Source: Sialis fuliginosa (lineage: Eukaryota > Arthropoda > Insecta > Megaloptera > Sialidae). From it: DNA of 64,000 nt. A program made the translations under genes and the position numbers. The notes beneath the pieces are model-generated. The model worked only from the letters and a program-made list of their open reading frames with translations, was not told where the DNA came from and did not search any database. This document shows positions 2,832 through 58,239 of the stretch, piece after piece (the stretch's first letter is position 1; each line of letters starts with the position of its first letter). The DNA lies in NCBI GenBank assembly GCA_961205875.1, contig OY540811.1, forward strand, positions 20,205,248 through 20,269,247, in the 5' to 3' direction.

Positions 2832-3177
2832 TACTACAGTAATCGAAGGGCTTGGTAAAGTTTATATTTTAGATACAGGCAACATTACAAAACTACACAA
2901 CATTGTTTTGTATTAATAATTCTCTTGATATAATATTTTGATATTTAGATTACCTATTACAATAAGATAATTTATTTTCTTAATGAGGATGAAGTTATTG
3001 TAAGGCAAAATATATCAAATTTTATACGTAAAATATTATCGAATCGATTAAAATTATAAAAATTAAACATTCGCATTAAAATGTAATTAACATTAAACAG
3101 TAAACTACATCTCAATCAAAATCACAATAAGTTTGTATACAAATCGCACTATATAAAGAGAACTACTTGAAAAGTTT

Positions 3178-3560
3178 CATCTCAACAGAAACTTCATCCC
3201 TCTGTCGTTGTATCGCACGATGTTTCATCCCCGTTCTCCCTCTCAACATTTGAACCCCTATCCATGACTCCCACCTCCACCCAACGTCTTCGACCGTCAC
3301 ACTGTCACGGTGGGAAGGGTTGAGTTTTATTAAAACAACATGTTAATGTAAAGTGTCAGCCCTCGAGAAGTGAGCCATATTGTGAAAGCAAAACTTAGCG
3401 ACAACTTCGTAATATTGTATACATACACCTTACCTCCCGAGGGAGTGTAGTTTTGATTTTCACTTTTATGTTGGCAAAGATTAGCCTCGGCTGTACGTTG
3501 TTACACTATTGCAGCTGTTGTAGTGTGTTGTTGTGTTCCAGTGGATGGAAATTGTGTTGG
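3178..3560. promoter_or_regulatory. GC-richer non-repetitive island upstream (candidate regulatory element)
   Basis: This stretch is clearly less AT-rich than its surroundings, has no transposon ends, tandem repeats or long open frame, and does not recur in the window. Such islands in the gene desert beside an Iroquois gene are candidate enhancers. This is inference from composition only. Confidence 0.22.
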
Positions 3561-4139
3561 CAGGATTTTTTTGTTTAAATTAAATGTGTACATTTTATAC
3601 TTAATTTTTAGATTTTGTACCTATGCATATTTTATCCATACAATTTTTATGTGTTTATTGAATATAATCCAATTATAATAAAGTATACTATATGAACATT
3701 GAACATATTGTTAATTTGAGTTGATACATTTTGTAGATTATGGGGTATCAATAATAAAATATTAGATAAATATAATTACCTCTAAATTTTTTGTTATTAC
3801 CACGTTAATAACCACTTCGGAAAGAAAATTTTAATGAATATAAAATATGCGGCCAACATTTTATACTTAATACGATTATTTTAACAGTTATGAATAGTAA
3901 AATTAAATTTCAGATATTAGATATGTAATTGATGAATAAATGATCTGATCATTTAAGTTACAAATCAGGGCGGTTTTACGAAAAAAAAGATTATTTTAGG
4001 CAATGAAAACGTCAAAGACAATTTTTTTTACTCAATAATGTCAACCAGCAAATAATAATAAAAGATCATTGAATTTCGTAATTAATAGGTACATACAGGA
4101 TACACACAGTGAAAAAAATACACCCGCGCTAAGGTACAA

Positions 4140-4385
4140 TACATAAACATAGAGAATGAACCGCGCATCTGACTCGAAAAGAAAGCATTGTCAAAAGAAA
4201 TATATGGAAATAGGTTTGGGATATACTTGTCCTTTTTTAAACAGGACTGTCTATTTCATTCTTATTAGAAAAAGAGATAGATATATCCCAAACGCGACCG
4301 CATCTCTTTCACTGTTTTGGAGAAATGTTACACAATTATATTAATACAAAATGCGCAGTCCATGCTCTATATCTATGGTACAGAA
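4140..4385. mobile_element. Fold-back element
   Basis: Left arm ACATAGAGAATGAACCGCGC and right arm GCGCAGTCCATGCTCTAT are imperfect inverted copies, with an inner pair GGTTTGGGATATA / GATATATCCCAAAC. No transposase. The open frames at 4156-4344 and 4325-4564 fall in this element and its flank and do not look like genes. Confidence 0.45.
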
Positions 4386-4773
4386 CACAGGTTTATATGA
4401 ATCCACCTTTTATATCTGTTGTGGTACGTACTGTGGCGGGTGTATTTGTTCACTATAGGCAATATCTGTTGTGGGTGAGTAAAAGCGTACGTTACCTCGT
4501 GCGTACGTGGTCCTTAATTAAGTGTATTTTTACTCAGGGGTTTTCAACAAATGGATTTGTATAATTTTGTTCAAAAACTCACTGAACGATTCAATAACAA
4601 CGAATCTATTTACTAAATTACTTCAAATGATTCGAGTCAATAATAATAATAATAATAATTAACTTTATGTTTCTATTATATAGACATTGATAAAAAAAAT
4701 ATATAAGCAACTATATATATAAAAAAAACTGTTTTTGAGTTGAACATTCTTTTAAATTTTAATATTAAATTAG

Positions 4774-5326
4774 GTAGGATCAAATGGGGTAAAAGTGAAA
4801 CAAAATACAAGTCTTTCATGTTTTTTGACAGTTAATGATACAAATTTATACTTTAATTTTTTCTACTAGTATAGATGCGCTTATGAAGAACCATTTTAAA
4901 TACTTACACGTCATTTGAACTGTACTTCATTTTTAACCTCTAGTTTGGGAAAAAGTGAAACAGGCCTCTAATGGAAAATATTTCTCGAAAAATTAAAAGA
5001 AAAGCTACAAACGCAACTTTGATTTATCTTCTTTGTGGTATATCAATGTGAAATTGTAACTTTAATTATTATCTGAGCTATACAGAAAGTTATGTGCAAA
5101 GAATTAAAATTTAATTCACACGTTTTGACATCGACTAACAGGGAAATCTGTAGGGGTGACACATGACTTATAAGGCGATTAATATTTTCAGGTCGCTTTA
5201 ACAAACCTTTAATGATGATGTCAGTTTTTATAATTCTCCTATAAACAAATTAGTTTTTTTGTTGCATGTTTGTTTCACTTTTACCTCATTTTTTTCGTGT
5301 TTCATATTTACCCCACTCGACCCTAC
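4774..5326. mobile_element. TIR element with TAGGRTCRARTGGGGTAAA ends
   Basis: The left end TAGGATCAAATGGGGTAAAA and the inverted right end (TTTACCCCACTCGACCCTA) match at 17 of 20 or so positions. GTGAAACA-type words follow inside both ends. About 550 bases, no coding capacity, so a MITE. This end sequence looks familiar from other insect genomes. Confidence 0.6.
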
Positions 5327-5486
5327 ATTAAAACATAGTTTATTTATTTTTCGAGTATATGATATAATATATCCATAACGTTAAGACTCTTATGTCAGAA
5401 GCTGTCAGTAATGTTTCAGAATAACTTTTAAAGAAAACTTTAGCAAAATATGTATAGCTATCAAAATGTCAAGGATATACGAAATA

Positions 5487-5817
5487 CAGTAAAACCTCTT
5501 TAAATGTATACAATTGGGACCTAAAAACTTCTATATAAGTAAATATGTTTCCCTCTACACTTGATAAAAACTCATTCCACATCGAATTAAACTATAAAAT
5601 TGTTTGAAGATGATTTTTTTTGGATTTTGTATTATTAGTATGGGAGTGATATTTTCTCTAAAAAAGATATAAACGTATGTGATAGTTACAAAAACAATTC
5701 AAAGTTAAACAATAATTTAAAGTAGGGAAAAATGTATGTTTAGGAAGGTAATTTTTTTTTACCATAAGACAGGTTTGTACTTTTATGGAGTATATACTTT
5801 AAGAGAGGTTTGTACTG
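5487..5817. mobile_element. pogo/Tigger-type MITE
   Basis: A TA dinucleotide precedes CAGTAAAACCTCTTTAAATG; the right end, inverted, reads CAGTACAAACCTCTCTTAAA. CAGTA-ACCTCT ends and TA insertion sites are typical of the pogo branch of Tc1/mariner. About 330 bases without coding capacity. A lone end of similar type (AGTAGAACCTCTATATAACT) occurs at 57804. Confidence 0.55.
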
Positions 5818-6179
5818 CATAATTTAAAAATTATGTACAAAAAAAATAGGTCAATAAATACATATGCTAACATAATATTAAGTAATAGCCGAAGTATGGA
5901 ATATTATAATATTTTACAACAATAGGTATACTCAACTTTGTAAAAACTTTAATTTAATTTATAAACTAACGTAATATAAAACAAAAGTTTAAAAACTAAA
6001 CTAAATATAACCTCGAACCGTACCCTATTCAAACTTCATATCTCGCAAGAGTTTTTCATAAACAACACCTTGTTTATCCTTTAATTATCAAAACTATTCA
6101 CCACTCTACTTCCCCCTTTTAGTTATAAGTTACACTAATTAATAAACATCAACGCATAAACGTGCTAATTTAATTTCAA

Positions 6180-25565: not shown

Positions 25566-26301
25566 AAAATACAACAATTTAAAGAAATTACTGGTCATGT
25601 CACATGAGGACTGAGAGTAATCCGACCCACTCTATAGTGAGAGACTAGTGTATATCGTTATGTATTTATGGATCAATTTCGATAAAATAATAAACTTTAT
25701 ATTTAGTTACTTTTTCATTATTAACGTGGTTTTTATTTTTATAAACATTTTTTATTAATCTTATACTATTTGTACTGTTTACTAGAATAATTTTATACTT
25801 CTATTAGAGTGGAACTTCGCGATAGACGTGTGTTTTTACTTTAATAGAAAAGTATTTTGTCCGAAATTCACCCTTATAGTATTTATAAGCAGATATTTGC
25901 AGATAAAAGTATCAACATAAAAAATAGTTTCTTTTCTTTTCCCCCTTAGATGTTGAATTTTGCAAAAATAAAAGCAAGATACCTACTCATGAAATTTCCC
26001 ATTTCTAGATCTAGGGATTTTTCATAATTTTGATTTAATTTCTATTTTAAATGAAATGATAAATAGTGAAGAGCATTAAATAAACTACCCTAACACTTAA
26101 TAAACTATTATACCATTTGTAAACAATATTGAACAGTATTTTTTGTGTTTTAGCAATAGTTAATATAAACTAGCGTTCAGAAAATATTTTTTGTTCATTA
26201 AAGAAATAAAATGACACAAAAAAAATTACTCCTTAAAATGGCTAAATGAGAGGTTGGTGAGATTTGTACTAAATGAGCAATATCATATATTTATATAATA
26301 T

Positions 26302-26476
26302 CAAATACAAATCCCCTAACCATAAAAATTGTAAGAGTTTTTTGTAAGAGTCTTTAAGACTCTGATGATGATAGCATTGCTATTGAAACACGTGTAAGTC
26401 TAAACTCTTACAATTTTTATGGTTAGGGGATTTGTATTTGATAAGTCATAACCATAGTTTTTGTCTGTTGTTTGTT
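26302..26476 (+). mobile_element. Retrozyme/Penelope-like mini-element with hammerhead-like core (family A, copy 1)
   Basis: The 175-base insert is flanked by an exact 15-base duplication, ATATTTATATAATAT (26287-26301 and 26477-26491). Its arms, 26302-26340 and 26402-26442, are perfect inverted repeats containing AAATACAAATCCCCTAACC. Between them lies CTGATGA (26362-26368), a hairpin ATAGCA-T-TGCTAT, and GAAAC (26385-26389) followed by the palindrome ACACGTGT. CUGAUGA - stem II - GAAA is the hammerhead ribozyme core. One extra base sits before stem II. The tail after the right arm (ATAAGTCATAACCATAG...TTTGTT) is shared with copy 2. There is no protein frame, so it must be mobilised in trans. 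Confidence 0.65.
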
Positions 26477-26600
26477 ATATTTATATAATATGTTATAAAT
26501 CATACAGAGTTAATGTTCAAATAAAATACAAGTTAGTTAGGTTAGGGCAATTTATTTGGGTGAAATCGAGTTAATTATAGTTTTGGGTTGGTTAGTTTTC

Positions 26601-31745: not shown

Positions 31746-31965
31746 ATCTTGCTATACATACATGTATTCGTACATACATATATATCTTATCAGTGGTGTG
31801 TCTGTATATGTATGTAAGTGGTGTGTATTGTGGGTAATTATATACTTTTTGTAAAATATAGTTCATAGTAAGAGAAATATCGTGTTTAATTTAATTTTCT
31901 TATATAGTTCTTGACAGATATTCAAAAAGTCAATTTTGATGTTTGTGAAAATATGTAGTTGACCA

Positions 31966-32182
31966 TTAAATACAAATCCCCTAACCATAAAAATTATAAG
32001 AGTTTATACTTACACGTGTTTCAATAGCAATGCTATCATCATCAGAGTCTTAAAGTCACTAACTTAGTTAGTTAGCATTGCTATTGAAACACGTGTAAGT
32101 CTAAACTATTACTATTTTTAAGGTTAGGGGATTTGTATTTGATAAGTCATAACCATAGTTTTTGTCTGTTGTTTGTTATGTT
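31966..32182. mobile_element. Retrozyme/Penelope-like mini-element with hammerhead-like core (family A, copy 2)
   Basis: Flanked by GTTGACCA on both sides (31958-31965, 32183-32190). Arms carrying AAATACAAATCCCCTAACC (from 31968) and its inverse (ending about 32142) match copy 1, as does the tail ending TTTGTCTGTTGTTTGTTA. A complete core (CTGATGA, ATAGCA/TGCTAT stem, GAAAC) lies on the minus strand at 32045-32018, and a second partial core (GCATTGCTATTGAAAC) on the plus strand at 32083. This is a head-to-head pair of units, an arrangement known in Penelope-like elements. Confidence 0.65.
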
Positions 32183-33225
32183 GTTGACCAATTTATTTTC
32201 TCGTATTAAGTCTTATCTATAATATCTCTTTTATAAGGATATGACCGGCGGCACACTGGGCAAATTCTCGATGGGCTGACCAAATACAAAATACAACAAA
32301 AACTAAAAAATTTTTGGTTAGACATTCTAGTGAGATTTGAACATTTATGTATTCACTTTACATTACTCATAAAAAATACATTTATTAACTGAAAAAATTA
32401 AATAAGTAAAATTTTTCACCCTACTTTTTGAAATAAATAATTAAATAATTTAAATATTCAATTTTAATGTACCCAAAATATTTTCAATCATCTTCAACCT
32501 ACGCCACTGTGCCATATACCTACTTATAAATACATAATATACATACATACGAACAATATCCATGTACAAACACATACACATGGCACATATACACACACAC
32601 AAACATATCTCTATACTGTCTATATACATTCGACAACAATATACGTATACTAGAACATATACTCGTACATACATACATATGCACATTTGTATACATATAA
32701 GTGTTTATATGGTACGCGTGCGTGTGTGTATGTATAACGAAACGTAATTTATGTGAAGTAACAAGGTTTATGGTAGCTGGGATACGGGGACCAGATACCC
32801 GATCTCAAACACACAATTTCGTGTTCGCCTCAGACGTGCAATGACTTGAGTATGATTAATTTCCTGAAGAATTTATCAAAATACCAGTGCCGTATTAAAT
32901 TTTCGAAATGTACCTATTCGCATTATTTTATATTGCTTAATTACAACTTGTAATTAACTAAATTATTTTGAATATTGCTTATGTTAGTTATTTATATTAA
33001 AAACATTCATACGAGATATGTATTTACATATAGGTCTTTTTTTCTGGTAACAATTGATATGTTGATTTTAGAACAAGAAGTTAAACTTGGCTAAATTTGA
33101 TGTACAATTATATAGAGTCAGTTTAAATATGCGTAGAAAAAATGCCTTATGCATTATATTAATAAATGTTGAATCGCAAAATCAAATGCATTTTTGGAGT
33201 CAAACTGAAAATTGAGACATAGTGT

Positions 33226-52322: not shown

Positions 52323-53004
52323 ACTAAAAAATAAATAAATGTTATATGATTTTACATTCAGAATGAAAAATTTAAAATCATTAACGAGAAAAGAACGTTC
52401 TTATCTTCAACTACAATCATTATGTTTATGCAATTTTTATGTACTACACTTATAAGTAATGCGCTATATTATAAATATGTTTTGTTCATATAGATAATAA
52501 AAATACATGTTTGATTCTCTTGTATATATATTTTTTTTAATGTAACACGTATGTTAACTTAATGCATGCAATTATAATGACTTTCAGCTACCCATATTTA
52601 GATGTCATAATATACATTAATATGCCCATATGAAACGACTAATAAAGCAATAATAATAATAATTACTAATTGCTGCTTTTATTAATCATGTCATTATACA
52701 TATAGTATTTACCCATTTTTTTTCTTCCGTGATCCCTTGTATGTTGATATCATTAAAATAATAATAATATTGTTGGCATGATGTATAATTAATATGCACT
52801 GGTTAGAAGATATGAAGCAAACCTATATTATTTGGGTTAGTGTCTCATTAATTTATACCGAAAAACAACACGTTAATTAAATTTAAAACAACAAAGTTAA
52901 TATTTTTTAAATATTAATTTTCACAAAAATATTTTTTGGAGATTATTTTGTTTGGTATTCTTAGAAGGATAACGATATTAATTTATTTTATATTTATGTT
53001 ACAG

Positions 53005-53394
53005 CCTACAAGTGTAACACTTCCTTCATCTACAGTTCGAGGTCCACCACCGTCACCTTCCCCACCGAGCATGGCAGTATCTGGACCTCTGCGATCAGCT
53101 AGCCCTGCTCCGGGTTCCGGTCCGCCATCCGGAGCACCACCTCCAGGCAGCACCGGAACACCTGGTGCAGGAGGTGCCGGAGGACGATGCTGTGATACGG
53201 GCAGGCCCATATTCACTGACCCTTTAACCGGCCAGAGCGTGTGCTCGTGTCAGTACGACCTCCTAGGATATGGGAGACTAGGGACTGCTGGGATACCGCC
53301 GTTGTCGATGTACAGCGCTCCATACCCCGATGCGGCGATGGCTGCGTACTTCCCGGCACTTGGTGCTGATCAGGCGCCTTTTTACACATCGACG
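53005..53394 (+). CDS. ara: Iroquois gene, coding exon 2 (Pro/Ser/Gly-rich region and CC-GRPI-VCSCQYD motif)
   Basis: The exon is 390 bases, phase 0 at both ends, and encodes residues 14-143. Residues 14-73 are low-complexity Pro/Ser/Gly/Ala (PPPSPSPPS, SGPPSGAPPPG, GAGGAGG). Residues 74-98 hold the conserved Iroquois block beginning RCCDTGRPIFTDP and ending VCSCQYD. Residues 99-143 are Tyr/Pro/Ala-rich (SMYSAPYPDA, AAYFPALGADQ, PFYTST). The acceptor is TTATGTTACAG before 53005, and the donor is ACG followed by GTGAGT at 53395. The open frame extends upstream to 52936 and downstream to 53415, but those ends are intron read-through. Base composition is sharply more GC-rich than the flanking introns, as expected of a constrained coding exon. 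The role of the Cys motif is not established from sequence alone. Confidence 0.96.
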
Positions 53395-56300
53395 GTGAGT
53401 AAAATAAATAATTGAATAATTAAATTGGCCATATCGCTGTTCTATAGCACAAGTATAATACTGACTCATTGAGATATCTTTCATTTAGATAACGCATAAA
53501 AAAAAGTAATATAATAAAAATTATTAGAAAGTAATTAATCTATTCTGATATGAGTTAAGGTTTTAAGAGACCAACTTAAGTTTTGAAAAAAAACAAGACG
53601 ATGTAAAATTTAATTATGTCTTGTCGAGAATTTCAGTTTTATTAATGAGATTGTCAATAATTAATATTTTAATATGGTTGTAATTTTTTGATGACTATAG
53701 GACAGAGTATATAACATTTACCATACGTTAAACTAAAAAAGGAAAAAAAACTAACCGAGACCCAGACGAGACCTGATTAATTTTTTTAAGTCAAAAGGCA
53801 AATATGCGACCGCTGAAATTTGACATGAATGAATAATAATAATAAGAATGAACACATATTTTATTTTATTTAGTTTTTTAATAGTAATTTCAACATCTGT
53901 AAAAGATATAATGAAATTAATAACTAAAAATATAAATATTTAATTTTATTCTGAATACTGAACTTCCAACTACCTACCTACTTATATAAATTTGCATAAA
54001 ATATTATAAATGTAATAAAACATTTTAATAGGTATATCTACTTATTAACAATTAATTGAATGGAGATTCTGAAAATCTGTTCTGTATTTGATCCTACTAA
54101 ACAAACATAATTATTGGAAAGCATATTAGAGTAGAAATTCAAATTGAAGTATTTGTCATTCACGCGGACCAAATTGAATGTGAAAATCATTAAAATAAAA
54201 CAGATTAACAAACGGACAGTGACAAGACTTTGTTTTCACACAAATTCACGAAAAACAACGAAGAAAATCCGATTATCAGTTTATTTCATTTCCACGTAAT
54301 CGCTATACACATGTCGAATGTTATTTTGTTTATATGATTTATATAAAAGGATTTTGTGTACAATACCGTATAACGAATTTCGATCGTAAACAGAAAATAA
54401 ACATTTGTGTTTCAATTCAGTGTTATTTTTAAATTCTGAGTTTTGTGTAAAATGTGTATGTAATTTTTAAAAACCAGCAATAGTAGGTACAGCTGGTACA
54501 TATTACATAATAATATATTAATATTTTGACTGAAACTATGATAAAGTTATTATCTTTATGGAAATAACACATATGGTACATAGAGCTGTGTACTTAAGTA
54601 CTTTTATGTTTGTTGTTCATGTACAATTACATTTTAATAAATATATGTATACATTGTACAAGTAGAAAGTACTTTTTCCAAAAAGTATGTATATATAAAG
54701 CCTGCAGGGTATGCAAAGTCGTCACTGCCGGGGCAATGTCAGCATTGCACATCGCTGCTGGGCAAAGTTCACAGAAATGGTTAATTAACATACTTGATCC
54801 GGTTTTAAGCGGACATTGTCGACAATGCTAAATCGTCGTTGGCAGTACCTACTACTGTATTATGATGTTAAACTGATATTAAATTTCAAATAAAATTACT
54901 TGGTACAAATTTTAAAATAATTTATTACAATTAATCAACAAAAATTAATCATAATATTTGGTATAATGTAAATTTGCAAAGAAAACATTTTAAAAATAGG
55001 ATGTACATAACTTAAACCGGACCAAGTCCGTTAATAAACCATTTCTGCGAACTTTGCCCAGCAACGATTTGCAATGCTGACATTGCCCGGACAGTGTCTA
55101 TTTAGCACACCCTTATTTTATTAGTTTTATTGTTCACAACTCCTGAAAGTTTGTCGGTATGTTTACGGGATACCCTGTATATTAATTATTAGTACATGTT
55201 ATAATATTATATGTATTTATTTCTATTAATGCTCAGTTTATTGATTAAACAAAAAACATAATTTAATTATCAGTCTTCAATACGACACAAGCGTGATCTC
55301 TGCGATAAACTCACGACTGGGAGAAACATTCTACGTGTCAAAATACAAGTTATGAGCTTGAACCAAAACTGTCTTCAACACGACCTATGATCCATAGCGA
55401 TCAGGTCTGTACTTGAAATTTTGTATCGATACATGGTATTGTATTAAAATTTGTACAAATTATTTTTATACCTAGGGTATCTTCACAAAGTTATTCGGAA
55501 TCTAAATTTATTGCTACGTCTTCATAAGAAAGAAATAGTAAAGCTGATATAAATATGTACAATATAATCAAGAAGGTGAGAATTCAGAATATTATTATAA
55601 TACATCTACCCAAAAAAAATTTGATATTAATTATTCATTTATATTCAAATTTTTATTTTTCATCATTACAATGTACCTACTATAAATTATAATAAATATT
55701 AATTGTCGAATTATTTAATGAAATAACAGAAAATATTATTTTAAACTGTAAAAATATATTTAATAAATATAATATTTCTTTTAATACATATTATTTGTAC
55801 TAATTAAAAATACCAATTAATACAGTATTAATTAAACAATATACAATGTAGACATTAGGAACAAAATTCTTGTTAATTCTGTACGATAAAAAGTTGTTAT
55901 TTCTTTTTCATTAACATCTACAAAATTTTTAATTATCTGAGTTCAAAGGGTATCAGACCACACAATTAGATTTTAGAAACAAAAACAAGATTAATTCTTA
56001 ATTGATACATGTTTTAGCATGTATTTCAATTAATTTTAACCTATTTAAACAATAAACAAAAATATTAAATTGAGACAAATTCATAGCATGTTAAATGATT
56101 TCAAAATTTAAAATAAAGTCAATATGAGATACGAATAAATAATAAGAACAATAAACAAACATAATTATATTGATTTGTATTTTTAATTAGATTCCTAATA
56201 ACTTATCAATTAATTAGTTGTTATGGCAATTAATATCGAGAATATTATAATTAGTACTCATAACTATTCTATGATTTGAAAATGGTAATAATATACGAGT

Positions 56301-56580: not shown

Positions 56581-56625
56581 GTAAGTTAAATAAATTTTTT
56601 ATTTTTTTATTTGAGTTTTTTTATA

Positions 56626-57204
56626 TTGAGACTGCTTAGTATCTGGAAAACTAAGGATTTTTAAGGAAAATCTTTGGTACAAAAGTTTCAGGGTTTGGAG
56701 GGGAAAACCAATGGAATAAACATTTTGACTTTGAGTGGAGGTTTCAAGGTCATTTTGTGGTTAGCTAATTTTTTTCAAATGGGAATCTATTTATTTTTTA
56801 CAAATTAGAATTTTGTACAAAAAAACTTTTTTTTAAAACATAAATTTTAACTGATTTTTCTTTTTCATTTTTTTACATTAAAAAAAATTTTTTAGTGTTA
56901 AAAAATTCTGAAATTATAAAAATGTGTTTTTTATGTATTATTTATTAAAAATTTAGGAGAATAATTTCAAAATTTTTGTACGCATAAAAAATTGTATGTA
57001 ATGCAAAAAAAGAATAAAAATTACGTTAAAAACTTTTCAGAAAAAAAATAGTAATTTCCATTTGAAAAAATTTATTTGACCCCAAAATGACCCTGAAACC
57101 TCCACTTAATGACAAAATTGTTACCTCCATTGGTTTTGCCCCTCCAAATCCTGAAACTTTTGTACGAAACATCCTTATTTTTCCAGGTATTAAACAGTCT
57201 CAAG
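56626..57204. mobile_element. Fold-back MITE just inside intron 3
   Basis: TTGAGACTGCTTAGTATCTG and the inverted right end TTGAGACTGTTTAATACCTG are the termini. Long arms mirror each other (GTGGAGGTTTCAAGGTCATT versus AATGACCCTGAAACCTCCAC, and AAACCAATGGA versus TCCATTGGTTT). TA-rich flanks on both sides. It starts only 45 bases after the exon 3 donor. Confidence 0.8.
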
Positions 57205-58239
57205 ATATAAAACTCATTCTGTATATTTATTCGCATTTTTTATAAAATTAAAATAAAACTAAAAATTAGATCAAAATACTGATCTACGAATAGATATAAA
57301 AAATCCAATATTTGGTATTTTTGTAAAAAATATCTAGAAAATAAATAACGTTTCCTAAAAAATATGAATTTCGCAAACCATATTTTATGAACCATTGGTT
57401 TTAAGTTATAGGAATTCTCTGGTAATAAAAAACTACATGAAATATCGCTACACAAGTTAAAAACAGTGTTCTTGTTCTGAATTTTAATCGAATAAATAAC
57501 ATTGTTCAAGATAACAAACAAAATGTTGTATTGTAACGGGAGAAAATAATTTCCAAAACATATAACACACGATTCTTTTGGAAATGGAACATGCATATTT
57601 ATACGATATTAACAAGAAAACACGTAAAATGAAAAGCATTGGAATTAACAAGTCATTTGGTAACATACAAACAAATAATTAAAATATTTTTCGTTTAATA
57701 AAACGTATTTTTCTCTAGTTTTGTTAAGTGAATGTCATTTTTTATATGCTATTAGCATAAAACTGATTGATAACAAAATAGTAAACATGGTCTGATGGTA
57801 TAGTAGAACCTCTATATAACTCGAGAAAATATTTTAAATTAAAATATGAATTTTTTGAAATATTTTTTTTTTATATTTTTTTCCAAGTTAAATTATTTTA
57901 ATAGGTAAGTTAATGCAATGCAATCCAATCATTGTTTTGTTCAGGTATTGTTTCAAATAATAATACAATTAATATCCATATTATATTATTATAATATTAC
58001 GTTTTAAATATATTTAATATAACATAATTAACATTACGTATATATTCATATACTCTGAAATATATTGGACCAAAACATTATTAAATTAAATTAGTACACC
58101 AATCTGCATCAAAATTGAATATAAAAAAAATAAAATTGAAATGCTCGCTGGTATTCAAAAATTTAATAGGATTCGATTTACTCTATATGAAAACATTTAT
58201 TTATAAATCTGGTTATTTAATCTAAAACAACACACCTAC

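Follow-up and report, generated by a model that had tools for sequence, protein, structure and literature searches.

A 175-bp insert with a hammerhead-like motif in Sialis fuliginosa looks like a copy of the mRNA leader of a Penelope-like element

Introduction

Penelope-like elements (PLEs) are counted as the third class of eukaryotic retroelements, and the completion of their insertion is at issue: the later steps are described as "yet to be validated" in an in vitro study of PAc, a Penelope/Poseidon-type PLE of Anolis (PMC11167929). PAc has a single ORF with a reverse transcriptase (RT) and a C-terminal GIY-YIG domain, pLTR repeats, a hammerhead motif beside the ORF start, a "tail" bounded by two start sites and AT-rich targets, all of which recur in the family described here. 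In vitro, the purified PAc protein cuts and extends both strands, and two adjacent start sites bound the tail; the PAc hammerhead is inactive without its protein, and mutating it leaves insertion unaffected (PMC11167929). The PAc hammerhead cuts 26 bp after the start codon, whereas here both the tail and the predicted cut precede the first ATG, within the leader; unlike in PAc, short leader-only copies prevail in the exact-tail sample analyzed below.

The copies of Pen2a_Av and other Penelope elements of the rotifer Adineta vaga, as presented in PMC3846280, resemble those described here in having pLTRs of inverted and direct orientation that face each other, one of which may bear a tail (31 bp in A. 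vaga), as well as target duplications (8-10 bp in A. vaga) and TATA and Inr motifs in the pLTR. That report reads the inverted structure as self-priming on an antisense template, the older explanation; the copies analyzed here fit two independent cDNAs better.

Metazoan retrozymes, according to PMC7229834, consist of tandem 150-450 bp repeats with type I hammerheads and give linear and circular RNA. The non-LTR retrozymes described there share with the present insert a small size, the lack of coding capacity, a motif of the type I hammerhead kind and duplications of more than 4 bp. They differ in their tandem repeats, for which there is no counterpart in 86 copies here, in their canonical or weak-helix-III hammerheads and in their circular RNA. 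In PMC6155905 and PMC7761336, PLE hammerheads are described as minimal variants without helix III, and the latter source adds that PLE hammerheads may cleave as dimers. The small variants cleaving as dimers (Lunse et al. 2017, as cited in PMC7761336) have a minimal stem III, as does the motif described here, for which a dimer fold is predicted.

Results

The insert and its borders

The window, by which we mean the whole 64,000-nt stretch of S. fuliginosa DNA analyzed, has a GC content of 28% and contains GTTAGG runs. A 175-bp insert at 26302-26476 is flanked by an exact 15-bp duplication, ATATTTATATAATAT, at 26287-26301 and 26477-26491. If an ambiguous T is assigned to the duplication, the latter is 16 bp long (26286-26301 and 26476-26491, 16/16 identical; left copy TATATTTATATAATAT, whose first T is the ambiguous one) and the insert 174 bp. 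This duplication scores 16, and only 4 of 430 swapped-flank controls reached a score of 10. The inverted arms are perfect over 39 nt (26302-26340 against the complement of 26402-26440), and pairing continues through three further outer arm bases that are common to arm and duplication. A preliminary description of this DNA had reported a 175-base insert with an exact duplication and perfect 40-base arms; the insert and its duplication were confirmed, and the arms to within one base. Folded as RNA, the insert far exceeds 200 shuffles in stability (z -11.4), mainly because of these arms. A match to MIR821 on the minus strand (47.6 bits, cut-off 249) is likewise explained by the arms.

The insert can be read as two pieces of one leader sequence, which we number with c counted from the transcription-start-like A of a relative, L009, introduced below; for the direct unit of this insert, the window position equals c + 26346. 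The direct unit (26350-26476, plus strand) runs from c4 to c130 and ends with the tail (c99-c130, 26445-26476), which is bounded by two putative reverse-transcription start sites. Its start at c4 was called by eye, and local alignment continues to c-10 via weak matches. The inverted arm (26302-26340, minus strand) is the reverse complement of c56-c94, or to c97 with the three bases shared with the duplication; it has no tail, and its outer end lies at what would be start site 1. Between the two, a junction stretch (26341-26349, plus strand) repeats the inner end of the arm, giving a direct repeat of 26329-26341 in 26342-26354.

A second, different copy of the family lies 5.7 kb away at 31966-32176 (plus strand; L040), and consists of an inverted arm followed by a direct unit that spans roughly c26 through the tail. 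Its arm contains a complete hammerhead core (32019-32045, minus strand), and its target duplications, TATGTAGTTGACCA at 31952-31965 and TATGTTGTTGACCA at 32177-32190, match at 13 of 14 positions. Elsewhere in the window, a P/G-rich open frame at 52918-53415 (plus strand) contains RCCDTGRPIFTDPLTGQSVCSCQYDLLGYGRL and presumably resembles Iroquois homeobox proteins; a Pfam scan of this frame gave no match. Imperfect self-inverted stretches at 56612-57216 (about 600 bp) and 54706-55113 (about 400 bp), with 69-70% identity, are perhaps foldback elements.

The source element is a Penelope-like retrotransposon

In the genome (392 Mb, 20 contigs), the 175-bp query gave at least 85 matches among the 40 of 1219 first-look candidates that were scored. 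The 30-nt 3' tail matched 555 times at up to two mismatches (272 forward, 283 reverse), and the reversed-pattern control gave none. Thirteen larger regions around matches were taken for closer study. One of these, L009, is a tandem PLE with an 815-aa stop-to-stop frame on its minus strand (3719-6166), in which RVT_1 was detected at E=2.7e-13, so that a single ORF with an RT adjoins the leader unit that is shared with the insert. The GIY-YIG domain (PF01541) reached 23.0 bits on the C-terminal piece alone (cut-off 22.6) and a sub-cut-off 18.6 bits on the whole frame. A phmmer comparison of the frame with PDB sequences gave no match at 0.001.

The leader unit stands directly before the first ATG of L009, where the tail end is followed by ATAAGCATGG, and again after the frame end of the upstream copy. 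A TATA box, TATAAATA, lies about 31 nt upstream of c=1 by hand count, and c=1 may be the start of transcription. Since the RT/endonuclease frame of L009 is preceded by the same unit, the insert is the leader (c1-c130) of a PLE; it looks like a copy of about the first 130 bases of the PLE mRNA, carrying the hammerhead motif of that mRNA, rather than an independent ribozyme-driven element. The pLTR units of the family show the direct/inverted layout with an optional tail of 30-40 bp (here c99-c130) that is expected of PLEs. The search for further copies and an RT donor proposed in the preliminary description was thus productive, and its suggestion of a Penelope-derived retro-insertion with no protein of its own holds, the insert being non-coding leader. 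It had also weighed membership in a long element in which this stretch is not conserved; the long element exists, and the stretch is conserved in it.

An RT search of the genome returned 55 matches, among which are families with about 54%, 47% and 30-38% identity. Among longer copies, six loci have a tail-less inverted unit facing a tailed one, and in L009 two ORF pieces meet head to head (8441/8446). In another region, L010 (C7:20164000-20172000), four leader pieces of mixed orientation lie within 360 bp (about 3831-4194). In L012 (C12:11365000-11372000), a copy of the leader unit closely precedes an open frame (2997-3506, minus strand) and shares its reading frame; we take this open frame to resemble an insect cuticle protein, although Pfam gave no match for it.

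The leader carries a hammerhead-like motif

The centre of the insert reads CTGATGA (26362-26368), a hairpin, GAAAC and ACACGTGT, as first reported, and this arrangement recurs beside other PLE frames with a different stem II. By comparison, and by the dimer fold of the L009 relative, the hammerhead-like motif would span 26357-26401 (plus strand), with stem I AGACT/AGTCT (26357-26361/26397-26401), the core CTGATGA followed by an extra unpaired T (26369), stem II GATAGC/GCTATT (26370-26375/26379-26384), GAAA (26385-26388) and the palindrome as stem III (26388-26395); cleavage is predicted after A 26396. Stem III consists of the palindrome only, which would give 2 bp and a loop in a monomer and 8 bp in a dimer. 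A long extension of stem I (GTAAGAGT/ACTCTTAC), which is due to the stretch duplicated at the arm junction of this copy (26329-26354), is not found in 13 leader units compared from other copies.

For the pattern CTGATGA-N4-30-GAAA, 0.69 occurrences are expected in the window and two are present, both within copies of this insert; 17 of 100 shuffles contain at least two, so the pattern is weak on its own. A descriptor that adds stem II (CTGANGA, at least five pairs with at most one mismatch, then GAAA) finds these two copies in the window and nothing in 10 window shuffles. Among 17 flanks of PLE frames it matches 14, where shuffled sets give 0.01 each; the flanks within a family do not count as independent observations, and the matches fall into five sequence families. 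L082, L090 and L095 are the flanks with no match. As judged by the descriptor rather than by a covariation score, stem II differs yet pairs in all five: GATAGC/GCTATT in family A, GACTTC/GAAGTC in B, GGCCGA/TCGACC in E and GGACAGT/ACTGCCC in F (one mismatch each in E and F), and GATTC/GAATC in G. Family G, which may belong to a PLE, was found next to PLE frames, in L097 and, on the opposite strand, in L092. Each match also contains a palindrome (ACACGUGU, ACGU or AGCU), part of which has been lost in the family A copy of L094, and which we take to run from A15.1 to U16.1 in hammerhead numbering.

The 14 matching flanks, with their differing but paired stems, speak against the resemblance being a sequence fossil or a chance likeness, devoid of structure or activity, a reading that we regard as rather unlikely. 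In its favour, the Rfam hammerhead models gave no match in the window at gathering level, none at the site up to E=10, where the preliminary description had proposed such a check, and none in the 17 PLE flanks up to E=3. The preliminary description had named a complete lack of covariance-model matches as refuting its reading, and this lack was observed; but PLE hammerheads are described as minimal variants without helix III, and the motif recurs beside other PLE frames with changed stem II sequences. Moreover, every descriptor match in the five families (L009, L012, L081-L097) has a single additional unpaired base separating CUGANGA from stem II, two elements that are joined directly in canonical hammerheads. 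Folding speaks on both sides. The family A core, taken from the L009 leader, folds without constraint as a double hammerhead when two copies are joined (-26.3 kcal/mol, against -8.2 for one copy), and the monomer fold of family F shows stems I and II with an open core; both recover the motif. Shuffled family A dimers, however, average -23.3 kcal/mol (sd 3.6), less than one sd from the real one, the whole leader as a monomer is most stable in a fold other than the hammerhead, and no double hammerhead is predicted for the dimers of families B, E and G. Because of the near-equal stability of the shuffles and the divergent folds of B, E and G, a hammerhead structure would be supported by sequence comparison and not by energy. 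The earlier proposal that the self-complementary stem III suits cleavage as a dimer agrees with the predicted family A fold. An exact motif search in viral contigs found nothing.

The ends of 86 copies

We analyzed the first 86 copies of the ordered list of exact tail matches (C1, 35; C2, 33; C3, 18). Selection by an exact tail makes pairs that are tail-less on both sides invisible, left ends of longer copies often go unseen since less than 1 kb upstream was examined in 63 of the 86, and microhomology leaves the alignment ends imprecise by a few bases. In 50 copies the duplication scored 10 or more, as it did in 4 of the 430 swapped-flank controls, and in 38 of the 50 it is 12-14 bp long; the other 36 copies have no clear duplication. 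The duplications are AT-rich (84% A+T, against 72% in the window). When the flanks of the 50 inserts were joined and compared with the sequences retrieved from this genome, unoccupied related sites without a gap at the joint were found for seven (L047, L048, L051, L053, L079, L130 and L132); for three more (L077, L100 and L124), related sites matched but required a gap there. L048 (C1:8626590) and L051 (C1:11525321) are inserted at an identical position in one family of repeats, unoccupied copies of which exist, and share a 17-bp duplication whose last four bases may be common to the arm.

The direct units pile up at one base: their 5' end is at c=1 in 19 of 86 copies and at c=0 to 4 in 30. 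Sixty reach c45 or further 5', and were therefore copied through the predicted hammerhead cut site. This matters for the idea of a retrozyme, that is, a short non-autonomous element with a transcript that undergoes hammerhead self-cleavage, becomes circular and is reverse-transcribed in trans. The hammerhead-like core, the small size, the duplication and a PLE enzyme encoded in the genome would all fit. Yet no direct unit of the 86 starts exactly at the predicted cut (c51) and only six start at c49-53; leader units arranged tail to start in tandem are absent from the 86 copies, three of which (L044, L113 and L137) have another piece in the same orientation; the leader belongs to an autonomous element, L009; and the inserts end at a base resembling an mRNA start and at two sites like those where PLE reverse transcription begins. 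We consider the retrozyme reading, which the preliminary description had offered alongside a Penelope origin, very improbable. Considered as a possible footprint of ribozyme cleavage, inner ends of arms near the predicted cut (c42, 44, 47, 51, 53, 54 and 56 in the 86 copies; c47, c51 and c52 in further copies) look like general stops around a structured region. By eye, arms or direct units in L033, L035, L044, L003 and L038 jump internally across the hammerhead/leader region, as if the RT had skipped a folded region.

Inverted arms (score of at least 16) are present in 58 of the 86 copies. Their outer end falls at c87-106 in 54, of which 40 lie at c96-99, and elsewhere in four; none of the 58 in this exact-tail sample includes the tail. 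The inserts thus have two preferred outer ends, one for the arm and one for the tailed direct unit. A clear duplication accompanies 42 of the 54 arms. The inner end of the arm lies at c-5 to 6 in 26 of the 54, and both units end there in 11. In 22 of the 54 (17 with a clear duplication), the 5' reach of the arm exceeds that of the direct unit by 6 nt or more, while only the direct unit has the tail, so neither was simply copied from the other. At 35 of the 54 junctions the two units overlap (10 being the largest overlap that could be scored), touch or leave 1 nt between them; at the other 19 an extra 2-46 nt separates them.

The same measurements speak to two further explanations of the inverted arms. 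In one, proposed for rotifer Penelope (PMC3846280), a single cDNA or antisense RNA folds back and serves as its own template. Inverted repeats that meet head to head at a near-palindromic junction are indeed common, as self-priming would have it; such palindromes are, however, expected anyway if two cDNAs stop at the same RNA 5' end. The confinement of 54 of 58 arms to the neighbourhood of one site, the lack of a copied tail and the 22 arms holding leader sequence absent from the direct unit all count against self-priming, which we judge unlikely on this evidence. The other explanation is a foldback or MITE-like hairpin family that multiplies as a finished unit, to which the perfect arms, the duplication and the hundreds of tail matches would correspond. 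However, 56 of 58 junctions are distinct, as are 49 of 50 duplications, the length of the arms varies, and 10 of 86 copies are armless and start at c-4 to 4, six of them with a duplication score of at least 10. The tail, moreover, lies outside the right arm, so the ends of the insert are not mirror images. A hairpin family is accordingly the kind of origin to which we give hardly any credence.

Discussion

The sister copies suggest that such inserts often arose through head-to-head joining of two DNA copies made separately. For the insert at 26302-26476, we think it probable that it is a non-coding product of PLE insertion, made of two target-primed cDNAs, one on each target strand, that ran towards the 5' end of the mRNA and were joined. 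The template would be the leader RNA, the first ~130 nt of the PLE mRNA with its predicted minimal dimer-type hammerhead motif. The PLE endonuclease would make staggered cuts, mostly 12-14 bp apart, and each cut target strand would prime reverse transcription within the leader RNA at one of two different start sites, the outer one giving a cDNA that becomes the direct unit with the tail and the inner one a cDNA that becomes the inverted arm without it. Both cDNAs would run towards the RNA 5' end, and their ends would be joined head to head. Such joining would give inverted arms and a variable junction, and the stagger of the cuts would give the target duplication.

Two outer sites, tail-less arms, the 5' pile-up and leader bases present in the arm only are jointly hard to get from one self-copying cDNA; all four follow if each cut strand primes its own cDNA. 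Longer copies show the same layout, in the six loci where a tail-less unit faces a tailed one and in the head-to-head ORF pieces of L009; the related unoccupied sites of seven inserts, and the cutting and extension of both strands from two start sites by PAc in vitro, count in favour as well. Several observations run against a two-cDNA origin. L094 and L095 are longer, direct copies that end at site 1 without a tail and have no partner within about 3.5 kb, so arms are not alone in using site 1; L137 has a piece ending at c114; and the four of 58 arms that start elsewhere and the 36 of 86 copies without a clear duplication also have to be counted. Unequal arms could alternatively result from deletions at the centre of the palindrome after insertion. 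Furthermore, in the in vitro work of Frangieh et al. the start site was alike on both strands, contrary to strand-specific starts (PMC11167929).

For PLEs at large, we lean towards the view that integration joins two independent target-primed cDNAs, begun at different start sites in the leader and often run to the capped 5' end, so that head-to-head pLTRs and junction palindromes would be its footprint rather than a sign of self-priming, and leader-only inserts one of its main products. A two-cDNA account of head-to-head pLTRs was not found stated in the literature that we searched, which consisted mostly of papers outside subscription journals.

The Penelope origin first proposed for this insert is right, its reading as a retrozyme is not supported, and its sister copies are unusually informative. 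The hammerhead motif lies within the copied leader, and, to judge by the direct units, reverse transcription passed its predicted cut site on most templates. With hundreds of short inserts of one family, a single genome provides footprints, near base resolution, of the starts and ends of both cDNAs, so that the two-cDNA and self-priming models of PLE insertion make different, testable predictions.
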